The notes under the pieces are model-generated. The model saw only the letters and a list, made by a program, of their open reading frames with translations, was not told the origin of the DNA and searched no databases. From contig JACMKX010000033.1 of the NCBI GenBank assembly GCA_014379905.1, positions 1-54,376 of the forward strand: 54,376 bases of DNA, given 5' to 3'. Source of the stretch: Ferruginibacter sp. (GTDB lineage Bacteria; Bacteroidota; Bacteroidia; Chitinophagales; Chitinophagaceae). The position numbers and the translations under genes were made by a program. Each line of letters begins with the position of its first letter. Position 1 is the stretch's first letter. Shown here piece after piece: positions 7,096 through 47,613 of this stretch.

Positions 7096-7196
7096 AGACA
7101 ATGGAGGGTATATGAGAGATAAGGTGAGTGGGACGACGTGGGGTAATTTCTTTTACACAGTTCATGTTGTGCATTTGTGTCTATACCCGGAATTTG

Positions 7197-9970: not shown

Positions 9971-10396
9971 ATGAAATCAAATCATCAACAAATGGTCGCT
10001 TCTATCATAAAAGAAGCAAGAATTGTAAAAGGGTACACGCAGAAAGAGTTGGCTGAATTATCCAGTATCAGCATCCGGTCGGTACAGCGCATTGAAAATG
10101 CACAGATACAGCCCAGGAGTTACACTTTAAAACTATTATCTGCGGTTTTAAGTATACCCATGGAAGATATGGTTCAAACACCGGTTGCAGAAGAACCGAT
10201 AATTGTTCCAGGCACAAGTCCGAAAATTATTTTGTCAGTGGGCTTAAGCATCGTTGCTGTGTTGCTTTACTGGGCATTTATAGAACAATCAGCCTTCCCG
10301 GAAACAGCTTTTGAATTCCTTTCCGGTACCGCGGTGTTTAGTGCCTGCCTCACCTTCCTGCTTTATTCTATGTGGAGACCAAAGAGCGACCGCTAA
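9971..10396 (+). CDS. XRE-family HTH regulator with two C-terminal membrane segments
   Basis: The protein has 141 residues. Residues 10-65 form a Cro/CI-type helix-turn-helix (KEARIVKGYTQKELAELSS, then SIRSVQRIENAQIQPRS). Two hydrophobic segments follow (about 85-102 and 112-130), so the protein is probably membrane-tethered. The CPBP protease gene begins 9 bp downstream, and pairing of a membrane-bound regulator with an intramembrane protease suggests a regulatory pair (inference). A TAnnTTTG-like string sits at 9961-9968, too close to the ATG to be its promoter. Confidence 0.8.
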   Translation: MKSNHQQMVASIIKEARIVKGYTQKELAELSSISIRSVQRIENAQIQPRSYTLKLLSAVLSIPMEDMVQTPVAEEPIIVPGTSPKIILSVGLSIVAVLLYWAFIEQSAFPETAFEFLSGTAVFSACLTFLLYSMWRPKSDR

Positions 10397-10405
10397 ATTT
10401 TACTT

Positions 10406-11113
10406 ATGCCTGGTATTATTGTACAACTCATTATTTCCTGGATCATCATCCGGCTGGTTGAAAAAAAAGATCTTTCTATCCTGAGATTATGGCCTTCCGG
10501 AAAAAAATTAGCCTGGTTTGTTTTGTTTTTCCTCGTTACTTCTTTTTTTGCTTCCAGTGGCTTCCTGTTAAGAATATATTATGGCGAACGATGGGTACTA
10601 AATCCTGTCTTCTCATTTTCACTATTAATGGATGGGCTTTGGTATAATATTAAATCTGTGCTGTATGAAGAACTGATCTTTAGGGGTGTATTGTTATACA
10701 TCCTGGTCAAAAGACTGGGCATAAACACCGGGATAATAATTTCGGCTGTCGGTTTTGGTATCTACCATTGGTTTACGTATGAAATATTGGGTGATATAAA
10801 AATGATGCTGTTTATCTTTTTTATAACGGGTATTGCAGGATTGCTCTATGCATATGGATATGCTAAAAGCAATACTCTGTGGATTCCCATTGCTATACAT
10901 CTGGGTTGGAATTTTACCAGGAATTTTATTTTTTCAGATGGAAATATCGGGAATGGGGTGCTCATTTATTCCAAACCAGCTTTTACAAGTACGGTGTCGC
11001 ATTTTATCTATTACCTTATTGCTTATTTTCCAATGATGGGTGCATTGGGGATTAATTGGCTGATAATAAAGAAGAAATACAATGGCCCGGAAAAACAAAA
11101 TACATCCTGGTAA
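10406..11113 (+). CDS. CPBP-family intramembrane metalloprotease
   Basis: The protein has 235 residues and six or seven hydrophobic segments. The CPBP (CAAX protease/Abi) signature is complete: E88-E89-x3-R93 (YEELIFRG), a histidine in FGIYHW (H121) and HLGWNF (about 165-170). The family cleaves or processes membrane-associated substrates; in bacteria its members are often linked to bacteriocin immunity or regulated proteolysis, but no substrate can be named here. It is co-oriented with the HTH gene and followed at once by a bidirectional terminator. Confidence 0.88.
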   Translation: MPGIIVQLIISWIIIRLVEKKDLSILRLWPSGKKLAWFVLFFLVTSFFASSGFLLRIYYGERWVLNPVFSFSLLMDGLWYNIKSVLYEELIFRGVLLYILVKRLGINTGIIISAVGFGIYHWFTYEILGDIKMMLFIFFITGIAGLLYAYGYAKSNTLWIPIAIHLGWNFTRNFIFSDGNIGNGVLIYSKPAFTSTVSHFIYYLIAYFPMMGALGINWLIIKKKYNGPEKQNTSW

Positions 11114-13107: not shown

Positions 13108-13827
13108 TTATAATTTCAAATAATAATCTTTTAGTAAAGTAATAAAACCTTCACTGTACTGCCTTTGATCATCATGAATGTATAATTCCTCCGAAATGAT
13201 TGCTGCAGGTTTTCCTGAAAATATTATCATGGTTCTGAAATATCCATGATCCACAGATTGTTTCACAAGCATTTTATCATTGATAAAAAAACCATTATCT
13301 TTTATTAGATCTTCGAGATACGAGGTTCGGTGAAAAGGAATCAACACGCATCCCACTCCATCTTCTTTTAATAATCTTTTTATTTGCAGCATTAACTCCC
13401 CTAATGTCAGTGTAGTATCATGTTTTGCTGCGTTTTTAGACTGGTTGTCGCTTTTAAGATCCGCCTCAAAAAAAGGTGGATTGCTAATAATACAATCGTA
13501 TTTTTTATCGGATTCAAAATCGAGGATATTACTTTGAACAACATTTAACCGAACATTCCAGGGAGTGTTATTAAAATTATCCGTTGCTTGTTTTGCAGCA
13601 TTTGAATTCATTTCTACAGCAGTAATCGTTGCGTCATGTTTCTGTGCCAGCATAAGACTCAGCAGGCCAGTACCAGTTCCAATATCCAAAACATTTTTTA
13701 TCGATTCATTGCCTTTAATCTTATCCGCTACCCATGCCCCAAACAGGCAGGCATCTGTGCAAACCTTCATGGCGCATTGATCCTGGTGAACGGTAAATTG
13801 TTTAAGTTGGAAAAAAGAATTAGACAT
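13108..13827 (-). CDS. trmN6: tRNA1(Val) adenine-N6-methyltransferase
   Basis: The protein has 239 residues. The class I SAM-methyltransferase core carries VLDIGTGTGLLSLMLAQ (motif I) and the amino-methyltransferase motif NPPF, preceded by IIS. The N-terminal FFQLKQFTVHQDQCAMKVCTDACLFGAW is characteristic of TrmN6/YfiC, which methylates N6 of A37 in tRNA1(Val). The neighbouring tsaD (80 bp upstream on the same strand) also modifies position 37 of tRNA, on the other hand for ANN-decoding tRNAs, so the two share a translation-fidelity theme. Confidence 0.88.
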   Translation of the reverse strand: MSNSFFQLKQFTVHQDQCAMKVCTDACLFGAWVADKIKGNESIKNVLDIGTGTGLLSLMLAQKHDATITAVEMNSNAAKQATDNFNNTPWNVRLNVVQSNILDFESDKKYDCIISNPPFFEADLKSDNQSKNAAKHDTTLTLGELMLQIKRLLKEDGVGCVLIPFHRTSYLEDLIKDNGFFINDKMLVKQSVDHGYFRTMIIFSGKPAAIISEELYIHDDQRQYSEGFITLLKDYYLKL

Positions 13828-35132: not shown

Positions 35133-35230
35133 TACAGTACTTCTGACAAAATAAAGAAAAAAATGCGGGATTTTGCGAATGTAATTTTGTGCAAGTGAAG
35201 ATTTTAGCTATTTTTGCCTCCCTTAAAAAC

Positions 35231-35300
35231 GGTAGTCGTAGCTCAGTTGGTTATCCCGTACGTACGGGACGCACATGCGGGATGATTGTGAGGGATCGAT
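35231..35300 (+). pseudogene. Broken tRNA-His copy with a palindromic insertion
   Basis: 35231-35253 repeats the first 23 bases of the intact tRNA-His exactly. The copy is then interrupted by TCCCGTACGTACGGGA (35254-35269), a perfect 16-bp palindrome, plus a related GCGGGAT stretch. GATTGTGA, as in the anticodon arm, and TCGATTTA, resembling the acceptor end, follow. The fragments keep the order of the gene, so this is a disrupted duplicate rather than chance similarity. Confidence 0.75.
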
Positions 35301-35311
35301 TTAGTAAAAAT

Positions 35312-35386
35312 GGTAGTCGTAGCTCAGTTGGTTAGAGCATCAGATTGTGATTCTGAGGGTCGGGGGTTCGAGCCCCCTCGATTACC
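35312..35386 (+). tRNA. tRNA-His (anticodon GTG)
   Basis: The cloverleaf folds with an extra G at position -1 (35312) opposite C73 (35386), the specific feature of tRNA-His. The anticodon stem TCAGA/TCTGA holds loop TTGTGAT with GTG at 35347-35349, and the T arm is GGGGGTTCGAGCCCCC. CCA is not fully encoded. Its 3' half serves as one arm of a 38-bp repeat found again at 38123, the pattern left by site-specific integration. Confidence 0.96.
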
Positions 35387-35387
35387 C
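35350..35387 (+). repeat. Attachment-site repeat, copy 1 (within tRNA-His)
   Basis: 38 bp from the anticodon stem to the end of tRNA-His. It matches 38123-38160 in the same orientation at 36 of 38 positions. The intact copy lies in the tRNA, as at the attL of tyrosine-recombinase elements. Confidence 0.8.
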
Positions 35388-35393
35388 ATCCAG

Positions 35394-35419
35394 AACCCCA
35401 CTTAATTGTGGGGTTTTTT
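35394..35419 (+). terminator. Terminator of tRNA-His
   Basis: Stem AACCCCAC/GTGGGGTT with loop TTAATT, followed by a run of six T. It lies 8 bp after the tRNA. Confidence 0.9.
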
Positions 35420-35506
35420 GTTGGAGGAAGTTAGCCGCTAAGGCGGAAAGACGCTAAACCGGCGGCGCCGTGGTTTGTGTCTTCACGAACCACTATACAA
35501 CGAACC

Positions 35507-35637
35507 TTATTTGCTCGAAACTAATAATTCCCTCACGTCTATATCCAGTAACAGGGCAACAGCAAACAGGTTCTCAATTGAGGATTGACTTTTATTCGTA
35601 CACCATTTGGAAACCGCTTTAGTGGAACGAGATGACA
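35507..35637 (-). pseudogene. C-terminal fragment of an XRE-family HTH regulator
   Basis: The minus strand reads SGLSSRSTKAVSKWCTNKSQ, then SIENLFAVALLLDIDVRELL and a stop at 35507. This is the second half of a Cro/CI-type helix-turn-helix of the kind KWCTNKSQPSIENLFxIAKxLxVDVRELL. Nothing matching the first helices precedes it. The 5' part is replaced by the sequence that encodes the neighbouring HEPN protein on the other strand, so a recombination junction lies near 35640. Confidence 0.7.
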
Positions 35638-36479
35638 ATCCACTGAAATATGAAACACAAGGTCTATTTTTTCAGATTGATGGCAAAGTTGAAAGGAGCG
35701 AAGAATTGTATTCTCGGTTTTTAAATAAATTTTTAATACTAAAAGCCCATCCTTTTATTGAAGATGAAACCCGCAAGAAGATTAACTCTGCAATCAGATA
35801 TTTCAGACTTGGAACAGAAGCTATTGAAATTGAACAAAAGTTTATAAATTATTGGATTGGAATAGAATATTTGTTTTCTTCAAAAATTGCAGGCGATAAC
35901 ACTTTTCAAAGATTTAAAGATTTTTTTAGCAAAGTACATGGACTCTCGTATGTTAAAAGAAATTTAATTGAATTTCACAAGCAAACATTAATTTCAGATG
36001 GTGCAACAGCGTTGTCCGATATTGACGATAGGTTAGATTATCTACTAGATGTAAATACATATAATAAGCTCTCTATGGAGTGTTTGTCAATTGACCCTTT
36101 TTTAGCATTCAAAGCAGAAGTATTCTCCGGTGTAATGGGGGATGATAAAACAATGAGATTGTATATAAAGAAACATGTGACAAACCTTGAACAGCACCTT
36201 GTTCGTATGTATAGAGTTAGAAACGAAATCATTCATGAAGCAGCTATCAAACCAAATATTGAAAGCCTGACTTCAAACCTTCGGTATTACTTAATATTCA
36301 CAATTAATACAATGGTTGATTTTTTTGAAAAGCCGATGACAGAAATTATCATCAATCGACAAATTTCTATACAAGATTTCTTTGTTTTTAAATCAATGGA
36401 ATTTGAAATTCTTTTGAAAGCTACGGACATAAAACATAGAGCGTTTAACAGTAGTTATAATGAAAACCTAGCTTCTTAA
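35607..36479 (+). CDS. HEPN-domain protein (ApeA-like), probably 5'-truncated
   Basis: The open frame begins with TTG at 35607 just after a TGA; there is no ATG, and its first dozen codons are antisense to the HTH fragment, so the true N-terminus is probably lost. The 290-residue product is helical, with EIEQKFINYWIGIEYLFSS and, near residue 205, the HEPN RNase motif Rx4H in YRVRNEIIHEA. This arrangement resembles the C-terminal HEPN domain of ApeA, an RNA-targeting abortive-infection protein. HEPN proteins cut RNA or tRNA on sensing phage. Whether this copy is active is doubtful without its front part. It converges on the holin-like fragment, overlapping it by 4 bp. Confidence 0.6.
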   Translation: METALVERDDNPLKYETQGLFFQIDGKVERSEELYSRFLNKFLILKAHPFIEDETRKKINSAIRYFRLGTEAIEIEQKFINYWIGIEYLFSSKIAGDNTFQRFKDFFSKVHGLSYVKRNLIEFHKQTLISDGATALSDIDDRLDYLLDVNTYNKLSMECLSIDPFLAFKAEVFSGVMGDDKTMRLYIKKHVTNLEQHLVRMYRVRNEIIHEAAIKPNIESLTSNLRYYLIFTINTMVDFFEKPMTEIIINRQISIQDFFVFKSMEFEILLKATDIKHRAFNSSYNENLAS

Positions 36480-36865
36480 TTCTTTTGTTCGTCAGGCCAC
36501 TCTATGGTCTTTTCATCACAAATAATATCAGCTTCGTCTAGCTTTCTATCTGCCATCTTTAAGGCTTTATCATTCATCTTTTTGCTTAAGACAATAAGAC
36601 TAGCCAAGAATCTAACCTTAGGATTAATAACCTGTAAGTTTTCAAAGATGCTTACCAGTTCATAGGATGCAATAAGGATTGACATAAAGAATACTACATA
36701 ATAGCTTTGCCATGGGAAAACTGTTTTCAATATGTAGTCAAGAAAAAAATTGGCAATCAGTAAAATCGAATACAGAGAAACTTTTTCGAATAAGCCTTTC
36801 CTTAATTTATGTGAAGTAACAGATATGCATTTAAGTGAAGAAGCAAATGGACCCCAATGTTCGCT
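36476..36865 (-). pseudogene. Phage-holin-like membrane protein lacking a start, copy 1
   Basis: The frame is open from just after a TAA at 36866-36868 down to 36476 (129 codons) but has no ATG; the only usual start, TTG at 36730, would make 84 residues. It reads SHKLRKGLFEKVSLYSILLI, then ANFFLDYIL and ASYELVSIFENLQVINPKVR. That is the pattern of the phage_holin_4 family (KGLxxKxxxYxxxxxANxxD..EGLSILEN). A nearly identical piece lies at 40289-40522. The 5' end seems lost at a junction near 36870. Confidence 0.55.
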
Positions 36866-36886
36866 TTATAGATTGCCCGTCTGGTC

Positions 36887-36929
36887 GTTGCAACCTTTAT
36901 TTCAATCATAGACACTACAAGGATGAAAC
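36887..36929. other. Solitary CRISPR-repeat-like sequence
   Basis: A 43-bp stretch beginning GTTGCAACC and ending GGATGAAAC has the length and end motif (GAAAC) of CRISPR repeats, with ATTTCAATCATAGACACTACA in between shortened here to its look. Only one copy exists and no spacers or cas genes are near, so it is not called an array. Confidence 0.2.
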
Positions 36930-37028
36930 AAGCCTTGAAAATAGGATAGTGATGGTTTGATTGAAAACACCTTAAAACATACCATGAAAAGCCTTGATAG
37001 ACGTATCAGGGCGTTTGTGCCTTCATAG

Positions 37029-37868
37029 TTGAATAAACTCAGTTATAGTACCTTTGCCAAAAGAATAGGTATGGGTGTAATTCCTAAAGATATATTGGAA
37101 CACATCGAAAAAGAGGCAAGAGTATCACTCCTGAATAATCCGGGGTTCTTGTCAAAGTTTTGCGGCAAATCACCAATCGATATATTTAGCATAACTCCTT
37201 ACAAAAAATTAATATTCATTTGGGGTAATCATGAAACTGGTTTGCAGCATATAAATATTCGACATAGGTTTTTTAGTAATGAATATACCCGCTGTAAGGG
37301 TGAATATATAATCACTAGTCGTTTTGGAATGGAGTCAGGTACCTTGATGGATTACAGAAGAATGGCGGATGAATTATATTTTGAACAAAATAGAGTGATT
37401 GAAGAACCTGGGCGTGGAAAGCATTATGATGTATTTATGGGAAGATTACCCTTTATGGATAATAAAGAATTTAAGCTTGTACTTCATAAGAATACTAAAA
37501 TTGTACACACCCTTTATCCAAACATTCCACCACACGAAAAGCCAAAAGGGAAACGATTCCTGAGATATGACTGTCAGGTAGAATATCAAGATGAAACTTA
37601 TGCACGAGTAGTGATTCCTTATTTGGACATTAAAGAAAGATTAGTATTCGGTATTGGAGTCCGTATTGACAAGACGGCGCACAAAGAGACATGGAGTGTA
37701 TTGATTTATAAAAATGATACGCTATTTAAAAAGGCTGATAATGTTGCTGATTCATCAATTTTCAATAGTGGTTATAGCATACCCTACAGGATAGACCAGA
37801 TTAATAAAATGGACTTAACATTCATTGAAGATTGGGTTCTGGAAGGGATTGATAAACATTCAATTTAG
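37029..37868 (+). CDS. Uncharacterised protein, possible BECR-fold nuclease
   Basis: The start is TTG at 37029, directly after a TAG; ATG at 37071 would be the first ATG. The 279-residue product is not one I recognise as a named family. Residues near 65-85 read ETGLQHINIRHRFFSNEY, and near 155-165 KLVLHKNTKIVHTLYPN. An HIxxRH motif followed by a strand ending in TxYP is what the Barnase-EndoU-ColicinE5/D-RelE (BECR) nuclease superfamily shows; a similar pair of motifs is in the protein at 53584. The C-terminal third (KERLVFGIGVRIDK..) is beta-rich and may be a separate domain. Its place between attachment sites suggests cargo. Function is unproven. Confidence 0.4.
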   Translation: MNKLSYSTFAKRIGMGVIPKDILEHIEKEARVSLLNNPGFLSKFCGKSPIDIFSITPYKKLIFIWGNHETGLQHINIRHRFFSNEYTRCKGEYIITSRFGMESGTLMDYRRMADELYFEQNRVIEEPGRGKHYDVFMGRLPFMDNKEFKLVLHKNTKIVHTLYPNIPPHEKPKGKRFLRYDCQVEYQDETYARVVIPYLDIKERLVFGIGVRIDKTAHKETWSVLIYKNDTLFKKADNVADSSIFNSGYSIPYRIDQINKMDLTFIEDWVLEGIDKHSI

Positions 37869-38122
37869 TGATAAGGTATCGGTTCCTGGAAAGGTATCAA
37901 TATATCCCCAACCCCTTCCCCTTCCCTACAGGCCCTTTTCATCCCTATTCATGTATGATTGAATCAAACAGGGGCTAGTAGGGCAGGAATCAAGGGTTAA
38001 CTATCAGCCGCACTACAATGACTTTCCACGTGAATAATTGCATTTATAATTACCTGCGACCTTTTAAGTCGCTATAACCCAATAGGAGAGTGGGTTGCAA
38101 CAAAGAAATCTGCCTGATGTTA
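37869..38122. other. Noncoding right flank of the tRNA-His element
   Basis: No gene is supported, and no integrase end is visible next to the attachment copy. A small hairpin GCGACCTTTTAAGTCGC is at about 38057-38073. Confidence 0.4.
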
Positions 38123-38160
38123 ATTCTGAGGGTCGGGGTTTTGAGCCCCCTCGATTACCC
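38123..38160 (+). repeat. Attachment-site repeat, copy 2
   Basis: It matches the 3' half of tRNA-His (35350-35387) at 36 of 38 bases; the two differences are in the T-arm loop region (GGGGTTTTGAGCC for GGGGGTTCGAGCC), which would spoil the T arm. It has no tRNA 5' half, so it is the displaced copy expected at the far end of an integrated element. Confidence 0.8.
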
Positions 38161-38179
38161 GCCCCGCACTTTGCGGGGC
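38161..38179. terminator. G+C-rich hairpin after the second attachment copy
   Basis: Stem GCCCCGCA/TGCGGGGC with CTT loop, followed by only a weak T-run. It occupies the place the tRNA terminator has in copy 1 and may be the original downstream terminator. Confidence 0.5.
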
Positions 38180-38617
38180 TTCGTTATAAACAGGATATGC
38201 CTCCAGCATGGCTGTCAGAGCGATAATATTTTGAGATTAGGCACAGCTTTTTCTGTCTCCGTAGGAGTATCCTGTCTTTAGCTCAAAAATATGGACGTAT
38301 ATAAGCCCCGTAGGGGCTACCTTTCCCTGCCACCCGCATATCAAATACCGCAATCTTCGCTTATCTGATCATAGCCTGGATGACGAAAGCACTCGTCATG
38401 ATATTCTTTTCTTTTATGAATTTACCTTAATGCTTTTAGATGCGGTATATGTATGGCACGGGAAGGAAAGTTTTGGAAAAATGGGATAGGGTTATAAGAA
38501 TTTATCAGATTTTTGTCGCCAGGAATTTGAAGAGGACGAGTTTACAGTTATTATCATTTGCATAGGGTGATTAGTAACCTTATTTAAGGAATCAGTTATG
38601 AATCCTTTTTTTATCTG
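38180..38617. other. Intergenic gap of about 440 bp
   Basis: No supported gene. A short palindrome AGCCCCGTAGGGGCT is at about 38304-38318. Small open frames show no domain. Confidence 0.45.
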
Positions 38618-39619
38618 CTACAAGTCGAAAATATAAATATTTTTCCTCTCGTAGGTAACATTGACATTAAACTCTTCTCGAAATCTTTCTCTTGTAAATT
38701 CAACTTCATATTCACAGGATACCAGTGGTGACGCTTTCCCGCCAAAAACTAGTCTAAATATGCAAGTAAACGCATCGGAACCTTCTTCATGAAATTTTAT
38801 ACTGATGTTGTCTTTCACAGGGCTGCCATAAAATAGAATTGGGGATAATGTTCGATTTTCATATATGGAATCTCTGTAGTATTTTTTTGGGTCTGGTGCA
38901 GTGTTAGCCTCATAAAACTCGCCTTTATTTATTATAATTCTACTGAAAATTTCATGTTCATTGTGCATTTTTGAGACATTGCTTATAACATAGTGGAGAT
39001 GAAAATTTGCAGTTTTAAATCTCATTTGTGTCGCTTCACCAATGTATATTTTTTCAGGAAAAATAATACTTCCCTCTAGTTTTGGAAATGATATTTTCTT
39101 AAATAGCGCTTCAATGTAATGATGTGGGGCAACTTTTGTTTGCCCATCAATCCGCATATAGTAGGTGTCTTTGAACTGATGTGGCGAATATTCACTTTTT
39201 TCAATTTCAACAACATAAACATAATTTCCACCACTATCTCCTAACTGTTTAAATCTTATCGCCCGTGGTGAAGGTGTTATTGAATCAGTAACCTTTCTTA
39301 GAAATGAATCCTTGTCGTAGTTTTCAGTGAAAGGTGTTAATGCCCCATGAAAAATAGTTTTTGTTGGCTCAGTTGAATCAGCTTGACCTTGAGGCGCACC
39401 CCAAATAAGTATACCACCTTCAGAATTTAGAAACCCACAAATTGATTTAATTATCCCTTTTTCTTTTTCTTTATGCCCACCTGTATCACTTGGATGTGTA
39501 ACATAAGATTTGTATTCAATCCTATCAGTTTCATCATTGGGTATTTTAAAATAATCAACCAAATCATTAAACTCCAAATTGAATATCTCCTTGCCAAAAT
39601 GGTCTTTTGAATAGCTCAT
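38618..39619 (-). CDS. AlbA_2 (Schlafen-type) DNA/ATP-binding domain protein
   Basis: The start is set at 39619 (MSYSKDHFGKEIFNLEFNDL), giving 333 residues; 18 further upstream codons would overlap the preceding gene's stop. The N-terminal 40-180 region has the AlbA_2/Schlafen AAA_4 hallmarks: EYKSY, then GIIKSICGFLNSEGGILIWGA and FKDTYYMRIDGQTKVA. The C-terminal half (about 190-333) is beta-rich and unassigned. Such domains bind nucleic acids and occur in regulators and in antiphage proteins. It is the last of a minus-strand operon behind the gene at 39633, with a 13-bp gap. Confidence 0.72.
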   Translation of the reverse strand: MSYSKDHFGKEIFNLEFNDLVDYFKIPNDETDRIEYKSYVTHPSDTGGHKEKEKGIIKSICGFLNSEGGILIWGAPQGQADSTEPTKTIFHGALTPFTENYDKDSFLRKVTDSITPSPRAIRFKQLGDSGGNYVYVVEIEKSEYSPHQFKDTYYMRIDGQTKVAPHHYIEALFKKISFPKLEGSIIFPEKIYIGEATQMRFKTANFHLHYVISNVSKMHNEHEIFSRIIINKGEFYEANTAPDPKKYYRDSIYENRTLSPILFYGSPVKDNISIKFHEEGSDAFTCIFRLVFGGKASPLVSCEYEVEFTRERFREEFNVNVTYERKNIYIFDL

Positions 39620-39632
39620 AAAAAATAAGTAG

Positions 39633-40247
39633 TTATCCTTTAAATGGTAAGATTGACGTAAAGAAAGAAGCAACTGATGCTAAATCTCCAAATTGGCTTA
39701 AAAGATTATTTAAAGCAATTTTTTGATTAACTCCTTTTTCAAGTGCATCCTGAATTTCTGTAATTGATTCAATCAGAATTTTTGACCTTTCTTCGTTGAT
39801 GCTTCTGTCTAATTCAACTTGACTTCTCAAATCATTTAACCCTTCAATAGTATCAGATGTTGATGTAATATTGAAATTAACATTAGAAGAATGAGTGACA
39901 AAATTTGCTTGTCCGTTGAAAGTGTATGAAAAATTATTACTTGAATCTACTTGTTCTTTTTTGAAATTTTCTTGAAATGCAATTGTTCCCCGCACAAAAA
40001 TTTCTTCTTCAAATTCTGAGTTGCTTCTGAAATGAAGATTTATATGGGAATCAGCCGATGCTATTTCAATCTCTCCTTTATCCCTCATATTTTGTAGAAT
40101 ATTGCTAATTCTTACTCTAAAAGTTGCATATTCATCTTCACTGAGGCCCTTTCGATAATTTTCAACGATTGGCATAATGTTTACGTTGTTGTATGGGTTG
40201 GCATACATAGCCTTCCTCAAATCATTAAGAAATCCTTCAATGTTCAT
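39633..40247 (-). CDS. Uncharacterised protein, partner of the AlbA_2 gene
   Basis: The protein has 204 residues; I do not recognise it. The first about 80 residues (MNIEGFLNDLRKAMY, then VRISNILQNMRDKGEIEI) look like a helical or winged-helix domain. A middle asparagine- and serine-rich segment (about 115-135) is followed by a helical, coiled-coil-like part (EERSKILIESITEIQDALEKG) and a hydrophobic tail (DLASVASFFTSILPFKG) that might touch a membrane. It is 13 bp upstream of the AlbA_2 gene, so the two are very likely co-transcribed and may act together. Confidence 0.65.
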   Translation of the reverse strand: MNIEGFLNDLRKAMYANPYNNVNIMPIVENYRKGLSEDEYATFRVRISNILQNMRDKGEIEIASADSHINLHFRSNSEFEEEIFVRGTIAFQENFKKEQVDSSNNFSYTFNGQANFVTHSSNVNFNITSTSDTIEGLNDLRSQVELDRSINEERSKILIESITEIQDALEKGVNQKIALNNLLSQFGDLASVASFFTSILPFKG

Positions 40248-40288
40248 ATTATTGTTTTCAGTAAATGTACTATTTGTTAATGGACTTT

Positions 40289-40522
40289 TTAACTGGTTGT
40301 ATTGACTGTGATAGTGGTTTGTGAATCTGAATTTATATCTGCTTCACCTAGCTTCCTATTAGCCATCCTTAAGGCTCTGTCATTCATCTTTTTGCTTAAC
40401 ACAATCAAACTAGCTAGGAATCTGACTTTCGGGTTGTTAACCTGTAAGTTTTCAAAGATGCTTACCAATTCATAAGATGCTATAAAGATTAACACAAAGA
40501 ATATTACATAAAACTTTCCCAT
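40289..40522 (-). pseudogene. Phage-holin-like membrane protein fragment, copy 2
   Basis: It reads IASYELVSIFENLQVNNPKV and RFLASLIVLSKKMNDRALRM, nearly identical to the fragment at 36476. Upstream, a different frame continues the homology (VDKAFFGWESF), indicating that one base was lost near 40515 and that a longer holin-like gene has decayed. The ATG at 40522 would give 77 residues with one membrane segment and may be accidental. It lies 41 bp upstream of the 204-residue gene on the same strand, so it could still be transcribed in that unit. Confidence 0.5.
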
Positions 40523-40751
40523 CCAAAAAATGCTTTATCAACTAGTCAATAATTAATCTTTCAATACAAAAGTTGAATTTCTTTTCAGGCGCACCAGGTA
40601 AGTTGATTCACTGTACAAAATAAAAATTGTCCGGTTCGTGGAGATACGAGCCGCGGCGACTGGCTATGTGCCTTATCCTAAAAATAAGTTTACACAAAGC
40701 CACTATACGGACTGATTTTTGCTGCGTATCAGCAGTTTAATCTAATTTCTT

Positions 40752-42902
40752 ATGCAACCAAAACTATTCAGCACCGCCACGGCAGTAATATTTTGTGCGT
40801 TACTATTTTTATTGATCAGTCCTTTCCGGCTTGCCGCACAGACCATCTCCCCCAATATTGTAACCGACCAGTTTGGCTATACAAGAACTGCCAATAAGGT
40901 AGCGGTGCTCCGGAGTCCGAAAACAGGCTATGATTCACCTTCGGCCTATACACCCGGAAATACCATTGTTTTAAAAAATTCGGACAATAATACAACCGTT
41001 TTCAGTGCAGCGCCTATCCTGTATAAATCCGGCATTACAGACCCTGCGTCCGGCGATAAAACCTGGTGGTTCGATTTTTCTTCTGTGCAAACCGAAGGAA
41101 CATATTATGTACTGGATGAAACAAACAATGCAAGATCTGCCAGCTTTACTATTACCGATACCGTTTACAAAAATGTATTAAAGGCAGCCGTAAAAACTTT
41201 TTATTACCAGCGGGCAGGGTTTGCAAAAACGGCAGCTTATGCAGGTGCAGGCTGGGCAGACGGCGCCAGTCATGTCGGCCCCTTACAGGATCGTAACTGC
41301 AGGATATACAATGACCAAAATAATGTAGCTACGGAGAAAGATCTTTCCGGTGGCTGGTACGATGCAGGGGATTATAATAAATACACGCCGTGGACCGCAA
41401 ACTATGTTATGGCGCTTCTAAATGCCTATAAAGAAAATCCAGCTGTGTGGACAGATGATTATAATATCCCGGAATCAGGCAATGGTATACCTGACCTGCT
41501 GGATGAAATAAAATGGGGAATGGATTGGCTCCTTAAAATGCAGCAGGCCAACGGATCCTCCCTTTGCGTGATGGGCCTGGCTCATGCAAGTCCGCCATCG
41601 GCGGCCAATGGGCAAAGTACCTACGGCCCGGCTACAACCAATGCCACCCTGAGGAGTGCCGCAGCATTTGCCCTTGGTGCAAAATACCTGCGGCAGGCAA
41701 ACCCGGTTTATTTTGGCGTTTACGCAGATACATTGCAGGCAAGGGCTACCAGGGCATACAACTGGGGAATAGCAAACCCCTCGGTTATATTTAACAACAA
41801 CAGCGCTTCCAATGGGTCTGTTGGGCTGGCTGCCGGCAACCAGGAAACAGATTCACTGGGCAGGTTTACGGCAAAAATGTCGGCCCTTTTATACCTGTAT
41901 GAACTTACCGGCACTGCAACGTACCGCACGCAATTTGAAGCGGGTATCCCCACTTTTCCCTTGCTGGCCTGGGGAAACTATGTGAGCCAATATTTCCAGG
42001 AATCTCAAAATTTATTACTTTATTATTTAAATCTTCCGGGCATTAATAATTCACTCGCTAACCAAATAAAAACCGCCACCCTTACGGCCGCAAAAAAAGC
42101 CGGCGACTTTGTTGGAGCGCTTAACAGCCAGGCAGATCCTTACCGGGCATTTATAAAAGATTACAACTGGGGTTCCAACCAGTACAAATCTGATTATGGA
42201 TTATTTCTATGGCAGCTGAAATCGCACAACATTGAACCGGTTAATAATGATTTCTATCTAAAGGCAGGCGAAGAGTACCTGCATTATGTGCATGGCGTTA
42301 ACCCGTTCCAGCTGGTTTATTTATCAAACATGAGCAGCTGCGGGGCGGAGAATAATATCAAAGAGTTTTATCATTCCTGGTTTACCAATGGCAGCGCTTT
42401 GTGGGATAGGGAGGGCGTCTCCCTATACGGTCCGGCGCCAGGTTTTTTATCGGGTGGTCCCAATTCGTCTTATACTATAGATGGCTGTTGTCCTTCCGGT
42501 TGCGGCTCTGCACAAAATAATGCAGCATGTTTCGCCGAGTCTACCAGTCCGCCAGCCGGCCAGCCGCCCATGAAATCGTACAAGGATTTTAATACCAGCT
42601 GGCCGCTCAATTCCTGGCAGGTTACAGAAAACAGCAATGGTTACCAGGTGGCGTATATTCGGCTTTTATCAAAATTCGTTTCCAATGCTGCGGATGATTC
42701 TACGATCGTATCCATAGCTGACGGCAACTGGAACAATCCTGCTACCTGGCAGGGAGGAGTGGTGCCATCCGCTTCAAGCAAAGCAGTGGTGAGGCATGCT
42801 GTATCCGTAACCGCCACTGCGAGTGTATGGGCGGTGAAAGTGGAACCTGCTGCAGGAAATTTGGTGGTGCAGGCGGGAGTGGTTTTGAATGTGTTGAATT
42901 AG
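40752..42902 (+). CDS. Secreted glycoside hydrolase family 9 (cellulase-type)
   Basis: The protein has 716 residues with a signal peptide ending LAAQ. An Ig-like CelD_N domain (about 35-135) precedes the GH9 (alpha/alpha)6 barrel. The nucleophile-side motif is GWYDAGDYNKY (D204, D207), the substrate-binding block is HYVHGVNPFQLVYLSNM, and the acid motif is SWQVTENSNGYQVAYIRLLSKF. The enzyme should cleave beta-1,4-glucans by inversion. The last about 65 residues (NWNNPATWQGGVVPSASSKAVVRHAVSV) begin a G8-like or beta-helix domain that stops abruptly with no type IX sorting domain, directly at a heptamer repeat. The domain may have been cut short. Confidence 0.9.
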   Translation: MQPKLFSTATAVIFCALLFLLISPFRLAAQTISPNIVTDQFGYTRTANKVAVLRSPKTGYDSPSAYTPGNTIVLKNSDNNTTVFSAAPILYKSGITDPASGDKTWWFDFSSVQTEGTYYVLDETNNARSASFTITDTVYKNVLKAAVKTFYYQRAGFAKTAAYAGAGWADGASHVGPLQDRNCRIYNDQNNVATEKDLSGGWYDAGDYNKYTPWTANYVMALLNAYKENPAVWTDDYNIPESGNGIPDLLDEIKWGMDWLLKMQQANGSSLCVMGLAHASPPSAANGQSTYGPATTNATLRSAAAFALGAKYLRQANPVYFGVYADTLQARATRAYNWGIANPSVIFNNNSASNGSVGLAAGNQETDSLGRFTAKMSALLYLYELTGTATYRTQFEAGIPTFPLLAWGNYVSQYFQESQNLLLYYLNLPGINNSLANQIKTATLTAAKKAGDFVGALNSQADPYRAFIKDYNWGSNQYKSDYGLFLWQLKSHNIEPVNNDFYLKAGEEYLHYVHGVNPFQLVYLSNMSSCGAENNIKEFYHSWFTNGSALWDREGVSLYGPAPGFLSGGPNSSYTIDGCCPSGCGSAQNNAACFAESTSPPAGQPPMKSYKDFNTSWPLNSWQVTENSNGYQVAYIRLLSKFVSNAADDSTIVSIADGNWNNPATWQGGVVPSASSKAVVRHAVSVTATASVWAVKVEPAAGNLVVQAGVVLNVLN

Positions 42903-42935
42903 TGGGGAGTGGGGAATGGCGAGTGGGGAGTGGCA
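42901..42935. repeat. Heptamer tandem repeat, AGTGGGG-type, 5 units
   Basis: AGTGGGG, AGTGGGG, AATGGCG, AGTGGGG, AGTGGCA in one register. The first unit overlaps the stop codon of the GH9 gene, so the repeat may have altered its 3' end. Confidence 0.85.
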
Positions 42936-42968
42936 TGCATTAAGATGTAATCACTGCAATACAATGTG

Positions 42969-43035
42969 CACCCCACGGTCGTGTCTTCCCGAACCGGAAA
43001 GAAAATGTGTTTCGTGAGACAAGAACCAGGGCGCC
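42969..43035 (+). repeat. Dispersed hairpin element, copy 1
   Basis: About 67 bp. It matches the reverse complement of 45085-45154 over its length, including ACCGGAAAG, AAAATGTGTTT and GTGAGAC. A 20-bp partial copy, GGTTTGTGTCTTCACGAACC, lies at 35472-35491. The element's own ends (GGTTTGTGTCTTCA and TGAGACGCAAACC in copy 2) are inverted repeats, so it can form a hairpin. Confidence 0.75.
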
Positions 43036-43129
43036 AAAGAATGTGGCCCTTATAATTCGTGTAATTCGTGCCTGAAATTCGTGTTATAAAAAATCTTTTC
43101 AATTTTAAATCTTCAAACCTCTCAACAAA

Positions 43130-43165
43130 TTTGTTTATCTCAAAACTCTATCGTAATATTGCGAT
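43130..43165 (+). promoter_or_regulatory. Predicted ars promoter with ArsR-type operator
   Basis: TTTG at 43130-43133, a 20-bp spacer and TAATATTG at 43154-43161 (close to TAnnTTTG) form the promoter. The -7 box lies inside ATCGTAATATTGCGAT (43150-43165), a 16-bp imperfect palindrome of the form expected for an ArsR/SmtB operator. Binding there would block the promoter until metalloid is sensed. Confidence 0.6.
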
Positions 43166-43180
43166 ATACAAATAAAGATC

Positions 43181-43507
43181 ATGGGTATTTCCAAAACGGA
43201 AGATTTTACAAAAAGGCAGAATGAGATCGCTACATTGATGAAAGCGCTTTCCCACCCGGCAAGAATTGCCATCATTGATTATTTGCTTTCAGTCGATACT
43301 TGTATTTGCGGTGATATCGTAAATGAATTGCCCCTGGCACAGGCTACTGTTTCGCAGCATTTAAAAGAATTAAAAAACGTAGGTCTGATTAAAGGCAGTA
43401 TTGAAGGCAATGCTATCTGCTACTGTATCAATGAAAAGACATTTGTAAAATTCCAGGATTATTTGTCAGGGATATTTAAAAAAATAAAAGTGCAGGCTTG
43501 TTGTTGA
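43181..43507 (+). CDS. arsR: ArsR/SmtB-family metalloregulator
   Basis: The protein has 108 residues. A winged helix (ALSHPARIAIIDYLLSV, then LPLAQATVSQHLKELKNVGL) carries a TCICGDIV motif at the alpha-3/4 region, the position of the ArsR CxC metalloid site, and further cysteines at ICYC and the C-terminus QACC. It should repress the cassette and release DNA on binding As(III) or a similar soft metal. It is the first gene of a compact plus-strand unit, 15 bp after the predicted operator. Confidence 0.9.
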   Translation: MGISKTEDFTKRQNEIATLMKALSHPARIAIIDYLLSVDTCICGDIVNELPLAQATVSQHLKELKNVGLIKGSIEGNAICYCINEKTFVKFQDYLSGIFKKIKVQACC

Positions 43508-43523
43508 TCTAAAAATATATAAA

Positions 43524-43964
43524 ATGACATTATCAGAAATTAAAGCCATTTTAAAGGATGCCGAAGCGGTAAATTTTCTCCTGGAAAATGGCCAATCCGT
43601 TCCTGAACATTTTCATGTAACGGAAATAGGCATAGTGACAAAAAATTTTATCGATTGTGGCGGTAAAGTGAGAAATGAAACCAAGGCTAATTTTCAGCTA
43701 TGGGATGCCAATGATTATGAACACAGGTTAAAGCCACAAAAATTATTGAACATCATTTCGCTCTGTGAAACAAAACTGCTTATGGGCAACTTTGAAATTG
43801 AAGTGGAGTACCAGGCCGAAACAATCGGCAAGTATGGGCTTGCTTTTAATGGAAAAGATTTTATACTCACCAACCAGCAAACCGCCTGCCTGGCAAATGA
43901 AGCCTGTGGTGTTCCGGTGGCTCAAAACAAAACCGCTGCCTGTTGCGCACCAGGTGCATGTTAA
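43524..43964 (+). CDS. DUF6428-family protein of arsenic cassettes
   Basis: The protein has 146 residues. The N-terminal MTLSEIKAILKDAEAVNFLL and FHVTEIGIVTKNFIDCGGKVR match the DUF6428 pattern, as I recall it. It ends in a cysteine-rich tail (ACLANEACGVP, TAACCAPGAC) that could bind metalloid. The family often accompanies arsR and arsC in Bacteroidetes. Function unknown. It is 16 bp downstream of arsR. Confidence 0.65.
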   Translation: MTLSEIKAILKDAEAVNFLLENGQSVPEHFHVTEIGIVTKNFIDCGGKVRNETKANFQLWDANDYEHRLKPQKLLNIISLCETKLLMGNFEIEVEYQAETIGKYGLAFNGKDFILTNQQTACLANEACGVPVAQNKTAACCAPGAC

Positions 43965-43973
43965 TTAATACCC

Positions 43974-44462
43974 ATGACAATAAAATCAATCAACGAACAG
44001 GATTACCCGGAAGTATCCCGCATTTATTTGAATGGGATTGCAACGGGCAATGCTACCTTTCAAACTACGGCACCCACCTGGAAAGAGTGGGATGATAGTC
44101 ATGTGGAGCATTGCAGGATAGGTATGGCTGAAGGCGGTAAAATGCTTGGATGGGCAGCATTGACAGCAGTTTCGGGCCGCTGTGTTTATGCCGGGGTAGC
44201 GGAGGTAAGTGTGTATGTTGACGAAGCGCAAAGAGGAAAGGGTATAGGTAAATTATTGCTGAATGAATTGATCCAACAAAGTGAGGCAGGAGGAATATGG
44301 ACACTGCAGGCAGGGATCTTCCCGGAAAATACCGGCAGCATTAAATTGCATCAAAATGGCGGGTTCCGGATAATTGGTTACAGGGAGCGCATTGGAAATA
44401 TGAATGGAGTTTGGCGCAACAATTTAATTCTTGAACGCAGGAGCAAAATAGTAGGATTATGA
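43974..44462 (+). CDS. GNAT acetyltransferase, ArsN/phosphinothricin-type
   Basis: The protein has 162 residues. The GNAT acetyl-CoA motif is VSVYVDEAQRGKGIGKLLLN (R/Q-x-x-G-x-G/A), followed by AGIFPENTGSIKLHQNGGFRIIGYRERIG, typical of the phosphinothricin/arsinothricin N-acetyltransferase group. In ars operons such enzymes (ArsN1) acetylate the arsenic antibiotic arsinothricin; whether this one does cannot be seen from sequence. It starts 9 bp after the DUF6428 gene and its stop overlaps the start of a 41-residue reading frame. Confidence 0.82.
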   Translation: MTIKSINEQDYPEVSRIYLNGIATGNATFQTTAPTWKEWDDSHVEHCRIGMAEGGKMLGWAALTAVSGRCVYAGVAEVSVYVDEAQRGKGIGKLLLNELIQQSEAGGIWTLQAGIFPENTGSIKLHQNGGFRIIGYRERIGNMNGVWRNNLILERRSKIVGL

Positions 44463-44584
44463 AAGCATTCTTCATCAAATACCGTAAGCCTGTAATCATT
44501 ATTTCATCTGTAATACTGTTGCAGGTATTTTTTGGTTTCGATATAAAGTTTTGTATTATTAACATCATTTGGTTATTCGTATAA
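44459..44584 (+). CDS. 41-residue membrane protein between the GNAT and arsC genes
   Basis: The ATG at 44459 overlaps the GNAT stop (ATGA) and the frame ends with TAA at 44582-44584, 3 bp before the arsC ATG. The peptide starts MKAFFIKYRKPVIIISSVIL and ends CIINIIWLFV, so it has one long or two short hydrophobic segments after a positive start. It has no recognisable homology. Its tight packing between two cassette genes on both sides argues that it is translated. Confidence 0.55.
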   Translation: MKAFFIKYRKPVIIISSVILLQVFFGFDIKFCIINIIWLFV

Positions 44585-44587
44585 ATT

Positions 44588-45004
44588 ATGAAAAAAGTAT
44601 TAGTCCTTTGTACAGGAAACAGTTGCCGTAGCCAGATAGCCCATGGTTATTTGCAAAAGTTTACAGCAGATGTTGCAAATATCTATAGCGCCGGTATTGA
44701 AACGCATGGCGTAAACCCAAAAGCTATTGAAACAATGAAAGAAGATGGCGTTGATATCTCACTCCATACTTCCAACAATGTAAACGAATACAAGGATATA
44801 GCCTTTGACTATGTAATAACGGTATGTGATAATGCAAATGAAAACTGCCCCGTATTTATATCAAAAGCAAAAAAATTCCACCATAATTTTCCCGATCCTG
44901 CAAAGGCTGTGGGTACAGAAGAGGAGATCAAAAAACAATTCAGCCTGGTTCGGGATGAGATCAAAGCGTACTGCAAAAAATTTGTGGAAGAAAATTTAAA
45001 CTGA
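44588..45004 (+). CDS. arsC: Arsenate reductase, low-molecular-weight phosphatase type
   Basis: The protein has 138 residues. The P-loop is LCTGNSCRSQ, with C8 in the place of the catalytic cysteine. C80 and C87 (VCDNANENC) keep the 72- and 7-residue spacing of the C10/C82/C89 triad of thioredoxin-coupled ArsC of the pI258 class. It reduces As(V) to As(III). The usual next step, export of As(III) by ArsB or Acr3, is not encoded nearby. Confidence 0.9.
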   Translation: MKKVLVLCTGNSCRSQIAHGYLQKFTADVANIYSAGIETHGVNPKAIETMKEDGVDISLHTSNNVNEYKDIAFDYVITVCDNANENCPVFISKAKKFHHNFPDPAKAVGTEEEIKKQFSLVRDEIKAYCKKFVEENLN

Positions 45005-45429
45005 TTTTGACACGATAGTTTCCCGCAGATGTTCGCAGCTGTAAGGCAGCGCAGATTTTAGCAGAAAGAAACCAGGAAAGCTGCGGGGACGCCATGGTTT
45101 GCGTCTCACAAAACACATTTTCCTTTCCGGTCCTTGAAGACACAAACCGGGGTGATGCAGCAATTTACGCATAAATAAAATCAGGAAAATCTGCGTGTTC
45201 TTCATCTGCGGGCATCTGGGTGAAACTCTTCTTCCAAATCTGTACTGGAACGTCTTATATGTAAATATTAAACCTTTTGTTTTTCAGTTAGTAAATAACA
45301 GCAGACTTCTTTGTTCCTCTTTTACCATCTATCACAATCATTTTCCACAAAGCCTGTTTAACAAAATATTAGCCGCATACCTGCGTTTTCCTTAAACGGA
45401 TAAGTCCTTTTTTCCGTTATTTTTACAAT
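45005..45429. other. Intergenic region of 425 bp with nested inverted repeats
   Basis: Outer arms CCCGCAGATG (45022-45031) and CATCTGCGGG (45203-45212), and CGCAGATTTT (45050-45059) with AAAATCTGCG (45186-45195), are perfect inverted pairs. They enclose the dispersed hairpin element at 45085-45154. No gene is supported. Confidence 0.7.
45085..45154 (-). repeat. Dispersed hairpin element, copy 2 (inverted)
   Basis: Reverse complement of the copy at 42969-43035, with terminal arms GGTTTGTGTCTT and GACGCAAACC on its own minus-strand reading. With copy 1 it brackets the ars cassette as an inverted pair. Confidence 0.75.
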
Positions 45430-47613
45430 ATGCAAAAAATTGCAGATTTTATTATGAGCAAAAAATTCATACCGGTGATACTGGTGCTTACCGCTGCCAG
45501 TTTTTTTGTCGCCTTTCAATCGCAGGGAAAAAATGATGATAATGATAACCCAAGGAGCAGGTATGCTAAAATTCTGAGGAATGTAGGTGTGCTGCTGGAA
45601 GAAGGTCATTATAGCCCAAAAAAAATAGATGATAACTTCAGTAAGGATGTATTTAAAAAATTCATCGAAGAATTGGATGGAGATAAAAACATCCTGTTAC
45701 AAAGTGATATAGACAAATTTAAAAAATTAGAAACAGTTATTGATGACGAGATTCATGGTGCGCCCCTCGAATCTTTTTATGCGGTGAATGAAATATACCT
45801 GAAAAGGCAGGCAGAAATTCCTGCTATTTATAAAGAGATACTAAGTAAACCTTTCAATTTTACTAACAATGAAACAGTAGACCTGGATAGTAAAAACCGG
45901 TCTTTTCCAAAAACAGAAGCGGAGCGTTTTGATTTTATCCGCAGGCAGGTAAAGTATATCGTACTGGAAAAATTTGTGTTTGCACAGGAGGACAGGGAGA
46001 AAAATAAAGGAAAAAAAGATTTTGTTGTAAAAGCAGACAGTACACTGGAAAGAGAAGCCAGGGAACAGGTTTCCAAACAAATGGAGCGTTATAATGCTAC
46101 CCGTAAAAACAGGGAAACAAATGATGAGAACTTCAGCACATTTGTAAATGCCATCACCGGAACAATGGACCCCCATACTACTTACTTCCCACCCATCGAT
46201 CTCAGAACTTTTAATGAATCTATGAAAGGAAGTTTCTTTGGTATCGGTGCACAGTTAAAAGATGAAGATGGTAAAATAAAAATTGCCAGTCTTGTTACCG
46301 GCGGACCAGCCTGGAAAGGTGGCGAGTTAAAAGAAAATGACGAGATCATTAAAGTGGGAGAAGGAAATGCAGTACCGGTAGATGTTACCGGTTATGCTGT
46401 AACGGATGCGGTAAAACTGATTCGTGGTGCAAAAAAAGGCTCTGAAGTAAAACTAACAGTAAAAAAAGTGGATGGTACCACCAGGGTGATTACCCTTTTA
46501 AGAGATGATATTAAACTGGATGATGTGTTTGCCAAATCTGCCATCATAAATGGGGAAAAGAAAATAGGCTACATCTACCTTCCTGAGTTTTATGCAGATT
46601 TTGATGACAGAACCGGTACCGGTTCCCGCTGTGCAGAGGATGTGGCAAAAGAGCTGGTAAAATTAAAAGCAGAGAATGTGGAAGGGATTGTTTTAGATCT
46701 GAGGGGCAATGGCGGTGGTTCGCTATGGGATGTGGTTCAAATGGTGGGCCTGTTTATAGAAAACGGACCGGTAGTGCAGGTGAAAGGCCGTGGCGATAAA
46801 GCCAGGGTATTGGATGATCCGGATAAAGGAACTGTTTTATACAATGGCCCGCTTACCGTGCTGGTAGATGAAACAAGTGCATCTGCGTCGGAAATATTTG
46901 CAGCAGCCATTCAGGATTATAAAAGAGGAATTGTAATAGGCAGCACTTCAACCTATGGTAAAGGAACTGTTCAGCGTAACATTCCATTAAACCCACAGGC
47001 AGAAAATACCTTGTTCAATGCCGGGAAAGAAGCCGCTGAAGACCTGGGTACCGTTAAATTAACCCTGCAGAAATTTTATCGTATCAATGGCGGTGCAACA
47101 CAATTGCGTGGGGTAGAACCAGATGTGGTATTGCCGGACAGGCTGGAATATTTAAAATTCAGGGAAAAAGATAATCCCGATGCGTTGGTTTGGGATGAAA
47201 TTAAAGATGCCACTTACAAACAGTGGAGCAGTACTTACAGCACAGATGCCGTTATCAGCAGCAGTATACAGGATGTAAATACCAGCACTACTTTTGGAAA
47301 AATAAAAACCAATGTGCAATGGCTGGAAAAAAACTATGACAGGGCGTATTCTTTAAACCTTGATCAATTTAAAAAAGATCAAAAGGCACTCAAGGATGTG
47401 GTAAAACAAATTGAAGAAGCATACAAATTGCCCAAAGCCATGGATATGAAAAACCTGGCAGTTGATAGTGCAGTGATTGCGTCTACCAAAGAAAAAACGG
47501 ATCGTAACAAGCAATGGATCAAAGTAAGAAGTGAAGATATTTATATTGATGAGTCAGTGAAAGTGCTTAATAAGATGATCACGCAGGCAAATTTGGCGAA
47601 GGTGGGGGGGTAG
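45430..47613 (+). CDS. prc: Prc/Tsp-type carboxy-terminal processing protease (S41)
   Basis: The protein has 727 residues. A membrane/signal segment lies near residues 12-30; ATG at 45454 is an alternative start. A tail-specific-protease N-terminal domain precedes a PDZ domain (GIGAQLKDEDGKIKIASLV, then GGPAWKGGELKENDEIIKVG) and the S41 catalytic core with VLDLRGNGGGSLWDVV, SASASE (483-488) and YGKGTVQ carrying the catalytic lysine (K511). A C-terminal helical domain follows (about 600-727). It degrades periplasmic proteins with nonpolar C-termini. A strong terminator follows. Confidence 0.92.
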   Translation: MQKIADFIMSKKFIPVILVLTAASFFVAFQSQGKNDDNDNPRSRYAKILRNVGVLLEEGHYSPKKIDDNFSKDVFKKFIEELDGDKNILLQSDIDKFKKLETVIDDEIHGAPLESFYAVNEIYLKRQAEIPAIYKEILSKPFNFTNNETVDLDSKNRSFPKTEAERFDFIRRQVKYIVLEKFVFAQEDREKNKGKKDFVVKADSTLEREAREQVSKQMERYNATRKNRETNDENFSTFVNAITGTMDPHTTYFPPIDLRTFNESMKGSFFGIGAQLKDEDGKIKIASLVTGGPAWKGGELKENDEIIKVGEGNAVPVDVTGYAVTDAVKLIRGAKKGSEVKLTVKKVDGTTRVITLLRDDIKLDDVFAKSAIINGEKKIGYIYLPEFYADFDDRTGTGSRCAEDVAKELVKLKAENVEGIVLDLRGNGGGSLWDVVQMVGLFIENGPVVQVKGRGDKARVLDDPDKGTVLYNGPLTVLVDETSASASEIFAAAIQDYKRGIVIGSTSTYGKGTVQRNIPLNPQAENTLFNAGKEAAEDLGTVKLTLQKFYRINGGATQLRGVEPDVVLPDRLEYLKFREKDNPDALVWDEIKDATYKQWSSTYSTDAVISSSIQDVNTSTTFGKIKTNVQWLEKNYDRAYSLNLDQFKKDQKALKDVVKQIEEAYKLPKAMDMKNLAVDSAVIASTKEKTDRNKQWIKVRSEDIYIDESVKVLNKMITQANLAKVGG

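Follow-up and report, generated by a model that had tools for sequence, protein, structure and literature searches.

A repeated tRNA-His 3′ half in a Ferruginibacter genome as the probable trace of two tandem prophages

How does a bacterial genome come to hold a second, displaced copy of the 3′ half of a tRNA gene in a region without an integrase? The locus that raises this question belongs to Ferruginibacter sp. (Bacteroidota; Chitinophagaceae; GenBank assembly GCA_014379905.1), and by the window we mean the whole stretch analysed, namely positions 1 to 54,376 of contig JACMKX010000033.1 (54,376 nucleotides, forward strand). An earlier note, made from the sequence alone, had taken the two copies of the tRNA-His 3′ half for the ends of one 2.8 kb element, terminating at 38160, that was either degenerate or a satellite mobilised in trans. 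Our analysis suggests that the repeat probably marks the remains of two related, tandemly placed prophages, both now lacking an integrase, with 38123–38160 as their predicted shared internal attachment (att) site. That the blocks are phage ends, the order in which they arrived and the deletions that followed are parts of this reading that we infer rather than see.

The repeat and the blocks behind it

The features from the tRNA gene to the end of the second block are listed below (HTH, helix-turn-helix; ORF, open reading frame); related genomes are denoted by our G numbers and, where needed, loci by L numbers.

35313–35387, plus strand: intact tRNA-His(GTG), called by ARAGORN, its 3′ end being the likely integration site; the gene order TonB–DUF445–tRNA-His is that of most fetched relatives.
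35350–35387, plus: att copy 1, the 3′ 38 nt of tRNA-His.
35388–35420, plus: terminator (hairpin and T-run) behind copy 1, with the stem CCCCAC/GTGGGG, also present behind tRNA-His of G011 and G029.
35507–35638, minus: C-terminal fragment of an HTH regulator, its 5′ part gone (HTH_3 positions 24–55, E 0.0016, below the Pfam cut-off).
35607–36479, plus: 5′-truncated ApeA-like gene, C-terminal part (PADLOC ApeA positions 362–554 of 601, E 9e-6).
36476–36841, minus: holin fragment 1, about the C-terminal two thirds (positions 62–165 of a 176-position holin model).
37071–37868, plus: orphan ORF, 265 aa from its ATG, probably full length.
38123–38160, plus: att copy 2, matching copy 1 at 36/38 positions; it is probably an internal att that separates two tandem elements (compare the inner copy of G158, below).
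38161–38185, plus: G+C hairpin GCCCCGCA/TGCGGGGC directly behind copy 2, without a T-run, recognised by eye.
38618–39673, minus: SLFN AlbA_2 protein (Pfam E 1.1e-13), with a 43%-identical homologue between holin and integrase in G065.
39633–40247, minus: 204-aa protein (ORF 39633), weakly matching the defence candidate PDC-M14B (E 3e-5).
40289–40546, minus: holin fragment 2, about the C-terminal half, with 82% DNA identity to fragment 1 over 197 nt.

The repeat is as first described, with 36 of 38 positions shared in the same orientation. Two matches at ≤3 mismatches appeared in none of 100 dinucleotide shuffles, and a 27-nt core searched at ≤3 mismatches through the whole genome recovered only copies 1 and 2 (the genome comprises 5.12 Mb in 194 contigs; the junctions in the window are known from the assembly alone). 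The identity of copy 2 begins in the anticodon loop and stops exactly at the tRNA 3′ end; both mismatches fall, by our reading, in the T arm, and ARAGORN called no tRNA at 38123–38160.

A common plan emerges when the DNA is read outward from each copy. From copy 1 it leads through the HTH and ApeA-like fragments to holin 1 on the minus strand, and from copy 2 through the AlbA_2 protein and ORF 39633 to holin 2, likewise on the minus strand. The distances from att copy to holin stop are 1089 and 2129 bp, as against 3.7–4.3 kb in the related loci of G065, G187 and G158. Since the succession of att, cargo and holin occurs twice, each time without an integrase, and has a parallel in G158, we read copy 2 as an internal att site. 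A tandem arrangement is recognised by at least three collinear att copies or by a shared internal att; in the window there are two copies, no third, and two similar blocks.

The claims that no integrase is present and that the DNA is degenerate stand: all six PF00589 matches in this genome lie outside the window's contig, and tblastn with five integrases of the family against 35300–46000 gave a best E of only 0.10. An element integrated at a tRNA 3′ end would carry its integrase within it; as none is found here, what survives is a remnant rather than an element. The HTH, HEPN and holin genes that had been named are present too, in a more precisely defined form. The HEPN ORF (35607–36479), which has no Pfam match, is the ApeA-like fragment: alignment to homologues of 465–495 aa shows about 200 N-terminal residues missing, only the C-terminal region of the full-length protein being covered. 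The broken ends of this ORF and of the HTH fragment meet head to head near 35620–35640, and the holin is the C-terminal part of its family.

No comparable backing was found for a possible nuclease inside the interval. The orphan ORF has eight homologues (one search of 5.8 billion proteins); no Pfam nuclease family matches any of the nine members, and its structural model is poor (mean pLDDT 60.6) with no fold match at E 0.001. No relative of it was found in viral contigs, and the one GTDB locus found sits in an accessory-looking region without the window's other genes of the interval. The DNA from 35388 to 40750 has no similarity to phage or plasmid records.

Holin loci and a tandem array in the family

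The holin fragments offer the best route to the missing parts. Fragment 1, searched against 294 family genomes, gave five matches including the genome itself, the others being G065, G187, G161 and a broken gene in G264; an alignment of the G065, G187 and G161 holins then matched 13 of 394 family genomes, again with its own included. The full-length relatives are 172–180 aa long, those of G065 and G187 belong to Phage_holin_4_1, and the G187 gene lies beside portal and tape-measure genes. At all four strong loci (G065, G187, G161 and G158) the holin is succeeded by other genes over 1.4–2.7 kb, then by a tyrosine integrase in convergent orientation and, 0.1–1.3 kb past the integrase, by a tRNA-like 3′ half. 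The integrases of G065, G187 and G161 pass the Pfam cut-off, and that of G158 was identified by 32.7% identity over 404 aa to an integrase of G199. For two of these halves a full tRNA gene is the counterpart (tRNA-Leu in G187, tRNA-Lys in G158); those in G065 (Ala-like) and G161 (Asn-like) are our own reading, since neither agreed over its entire length with any tRNA gene of the fetched loci, which include no tRNA-Ala or tRNA-Asn gene. A scan for half copies by a T-arm motif, which yielded a chance match at 36896 of the window and failed to detect the mutated copy 2, is not proof on its own.

These loci bear directly on the proposal that the interval is an active satellite or island which the integrase of a helper mobilises in trans. 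Two near-identical att-like copies without an integrase are what such a satellite would show, and a phage satellite would itself carry an integrase and replication genes in the absence of structural genes; neither an integrase nor, among the ORFs scanned, a replication gene was recognised. Four genes are broken (the HTH, the ApeA-like gene and both holins), the one genomic locus found for the orphan ORF lacks the window's other interval genes, and the strong holin relatives adjoin an integrase of their own. We consider mobilisation in trans highly improbable, and an active satellite is rejected on account of the broken genes.

The closest model is the tandem array at tRNA-Lys in G158. Three identical 43-bp copies of the tRNA-Lys 3′ end lie on one strand, at 2125833, 2181670 and 2276616, and the last of them, at the outer end, belongs to the only intact tRNA gene. 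Next to the inner copy come an integrase, further genes and a holin, oriented as in the window, and on the other side of this copy stands an integrase-like ORF with 30% identity to the G187 integrase. The likeness to the window lies in an inner tRNA half that precedes an integrase, further genes and an opposite-strand holin. The array differs in its spacing (about 56 and 95 kb between copies), in having kept all three copies, in its target tRNA and in not being eroded as the window is.

On our preferred reading, a phage site bearing the tRNA 3′ half would first have been recombined by a tyrosine recombinase with the part of tRNA-His from the anticodon loop to the 3′ end, so that the gene was restored and another 3′ half remained. 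Next, a related phage would have entered at the same site, and the order would have become tRNA, phage 1, half copy, phage 2, outer copy. Finally, the integrases of both phages, the structural genes and the outer copy would have been lost by deletion.

tRNA-His as a target and the extent of the inserted DNA

We scanned 394 family genomes with a tRNA-His core and obtained matches in 123. In G416 a 405-aa tyrosine integrase (PF00589 E 1.6e-20, with Arm-DNA-bind_2) stands 153 bp behind tRNA-His, which has relatives of DUF445 and TonB as neighbours, and a displaced copy comprising nearly the whole tRNA minus its first bases is found 12.6 kb further on. In G199 an integrase lies directly behind tRNA-His near a contig end (PF00589 E 7e-5; its 23.0 bits fall short of the 27.1-bit cut-off), and a 3′-half copy with identity from around the anticodon arm is found on a separate contig behind genes that look phage-like to us. 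As both genomes combine an integrase behind tRNA-His with a displaced copy, tyrosine recombinases in this family appear to target tRNA-His and to leave a footprint resembling that in the window. The att duplication proposed earlier is thereby backed by comparators using the same target gene; the G416 copy moreover lies on the same strand and ends at the tRNA 3′ end. They differ from the window in the integrase directly behind the tRNA, which the window lacks, and in the near-complete copy of G416. A degenerate displaced 3′ copy in G283 (L136), on a contig with none of that genome's PF00589 matches, was counted neither way. IMG/VR held no att-like copy by three exact patterns.

Several other candidates were set aside. 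The second copy in G267 is a full tRNA-His with near-identical upstream sequence and is hence a gene duplication rather than an att site; the two complete genes of this locus (L132), at 3963–4037 and 13498–13572, are 9.5 kb apart. The 299-aa protein encoded behind tRNA-His in G063, which we take to be the chromosomal XerD, was not counted as a supporting integrase. G016 (L037) and G030 (L056) were dismissed as models for want of a second tRNA 3′ copy within about 10.9 kb behind tRNA-His. There, a 500-aa ORF directly behind tRNA-His, presumably a large serine recombinase, is followed by putative conjugation genes; it reads toward tRNA-His with no stop before the tRNA.

How much DNA was inserted can be judged from the genus. 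The tRNA region was searched in 93 genomes (own included), and 46 tRNA-His loci from 45 of the 92 relatives were measured, making 47 with the window (G046 was fetched and left unmeasured). Two further features are needed here:

40547–45320, no strand: further accessory DNA of unproven origin, with a GH9 cellulase gene, preceding the conserved upstream region of the peptidase gene.
45430–47613, plus: the peptidase gene, ancestral right neighbour of tRNA-His.

The peptidase gene, whose product we assume to be of the S41/CTP type, lies 130–417 bp behind tRNA-His in 24 of the 28 loci having both in order, the other four gaps being 1309, 1459, 4250 (G011) and 10042 bp (the window); on 19 of the 47 stretches no such gene was seen behind tRNA-His, partly as contigs end. 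Relatives thus preserve an uninterrupted tRNA-His site, and comparison of their short gap with the 10042 bp of the window indicates an insertion of about 10 kb rather than 2.8 kb in the lineage of the window. Upstream of the peptidase gene, a conserved stretch can be made out by eye at about 45330–45429. A 34-nt core at ≤3 mismatches matched 38 of the 93 genus genomes, tRNA-His being too divergent in the other 55, and gave two places only in G000, G046 and G090; the second places in G046 and G090 are overlapping contig ends, not duplications. A relative with both 38-bp copies and no intervening DNA, which the earlier note had named as contrary evidence, was not seen among these 38 genomes.

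These measurements speak against an element that ends at 38160. A single degenerate tyrosine-recombinase element, with copy 1 as attL, copy 2 as attR and the DNA past 38160 as an unrelated later insertion, would fit the pair of copies, the G416 and G199 comparators and the lack of a third copy. However, its attR should border host DNA, and what follows copy 2 is a second phage-like block, with the peptidase gene 7.3 kb away. This block moreover repeats the plan of the first, down to an 82%-identical holin fragment on the same strand. We regard a single element as rather unlikely, and prefer the two tandem prophage remnants.

The origin of the DNA beyond the second holin is a separate matter. 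The GH9 cellulase gene has no close relative in the 92 genus relatives, the best matches being 26–39% identical, and the ORFs after it within 40752–45004 we take to be ArsR-, GNAT- and ArsC-like. In G011, different ORFs fill the interval between tRNA-His and the peptidase gene.

Weighing the objections and the wider setting

Several observations weigh against two tandem prophages. Some are absences from the window: a third tRNA-His 3′ copy does not occur anywhere from 38161 to 45440, the 120 bp and 457 bp in which an integrase relic should lie contain none, and neither block has a recognised phage structural gene. The cargo is only partly defence-like, the AlbA_2 protein having no PADLOC match and ORF 39633 only a weak one. 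Among the comparators, G065, G187 and G161 match the holin alignment by construction, so that G158 is the sole additional strong match, and at E 1e-5 no query integrase, out of five, was seen at nine weaker holin loci (eight genomes). In G065, G187 and G161 the holin and half copy share a strand, the window having them on opposite strands like G158 only; and the displaced copy of G416 is longer than copy 2. Finally, one of the nine weaker loci, that of G264 (L129), has a broken holin at about 10382–10609, some 3 kb behind tRNA-Leu(CAA) (7172–7256), with no second tRNA half found; this is perhaps another eroded prophage end.

The terminator is a further difficulty, because a single simple integration would have shifted the host terminator behind copy 2. 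The stem CCCCAC/GTGGGG directly behind copy 1 is common to the window, G011 and G029 only (3 of 46 loci with flank). G011 is the window's sister in the peptidase tree (100/100), where G029 joins at weak support (82/75); neither is in the TonB tree. The flanks in G158 soften this objection: there the intact tRNA and the outer copy have similar flanks (52/61 columns) and the flank of the inner copy differs (38/76), a pattern with which the window's two hairpins agree if the outer copy was lost.

The same terminator lends itself to another explanation, in which copy 2 arose by tandem duplication of tRNA-His, decayed and was moved away by unrelated insertions, with no site-specific recombination. 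This gains from two pseudo-tRNA-His copies, one just upstream of the intact gene (35229–35302) and another behind tRNA-His in G029. Yet copy 2 has no 5′ half and begins in the anticodon loop, much as the copies in G158, G187 and G199 begin in or near the anticodon arm, and its 3′ half is intact at 36 of 38 positions, precisely where both known pseudo-copies have decayed. We therefore hold a displaced duplicate to be improbable, more so than a single element.

The two pseudo-copies are of some interest in themselves. The one at 35229–35302 stands at an 81-nt tandem spacing from the intact tRNA-His and retains its 5′ 23 nt, followed by the palindrome TCCCGTACGTACGGGA and remnants. That of G029 (L064) is near full-length, lies about 45 bp behind tRNA-His and before the peptidase gene, and likewise contains palindromic inserts.

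If the window holds two tandem prophage remnants, the arrangement has known counterparts. PMC5704250 describes tandem accretion as well as cis-mobilizable elements (CIMEs), in which integration and transfer genes are lost with attL and attR kept, and presents CIMEs as decayed integrative and conjugative or integrative and mobilizable elements. The window shares with these its collinear att copies, its decayed modules and its missing integrase; it differs in that its blocks look phage-derived, no transfer gene was recognised in them and the outer att is missing. Defence genes carried as phage cargo, one with a HEPN domain, likewise have parallels: the Tha HEPN system is carried by prophages (PMC11087260), and defence hotspots are reported in P2 and P4 phages and satellites (PMC9122126), these being in other phages and at other places in the genome. 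Among the papers listed for Chitinophaga prophages or integrases at tRNA-His, none concerned this site by its title and the start of its abstract. The locus is a real genomic fossil, ordinary in kind.

Its value lies in showing the probable build-up and erosion of one tRNA-flanking region in an under-studied family of the Bacteroidota, in offering an explanation of why a repeat can lack an integrase, and in pointing to the interval from holin to integrase as a cargo slot open to testing. It also cautions that paired tRNA half copies need not bound a single element. More speculatively, and with considerable doubt on our part, a family of Chitinophagaceae-type prophages might have, beside the att site, a slot between holin and integrase in which defence genes are swapped; stacking of such phages at one tRNA, followed by decay and by selection that preferentially leaves the att-proximal defence genes, might make tRNA-flanking defence genes a residue of serial lysogeny.

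Far from the repeat, an ORF at 6562–7095 of the window ends in a CtnDOT_TraJ domain (E 1.3e-23), a remnant of a conjugation gene.

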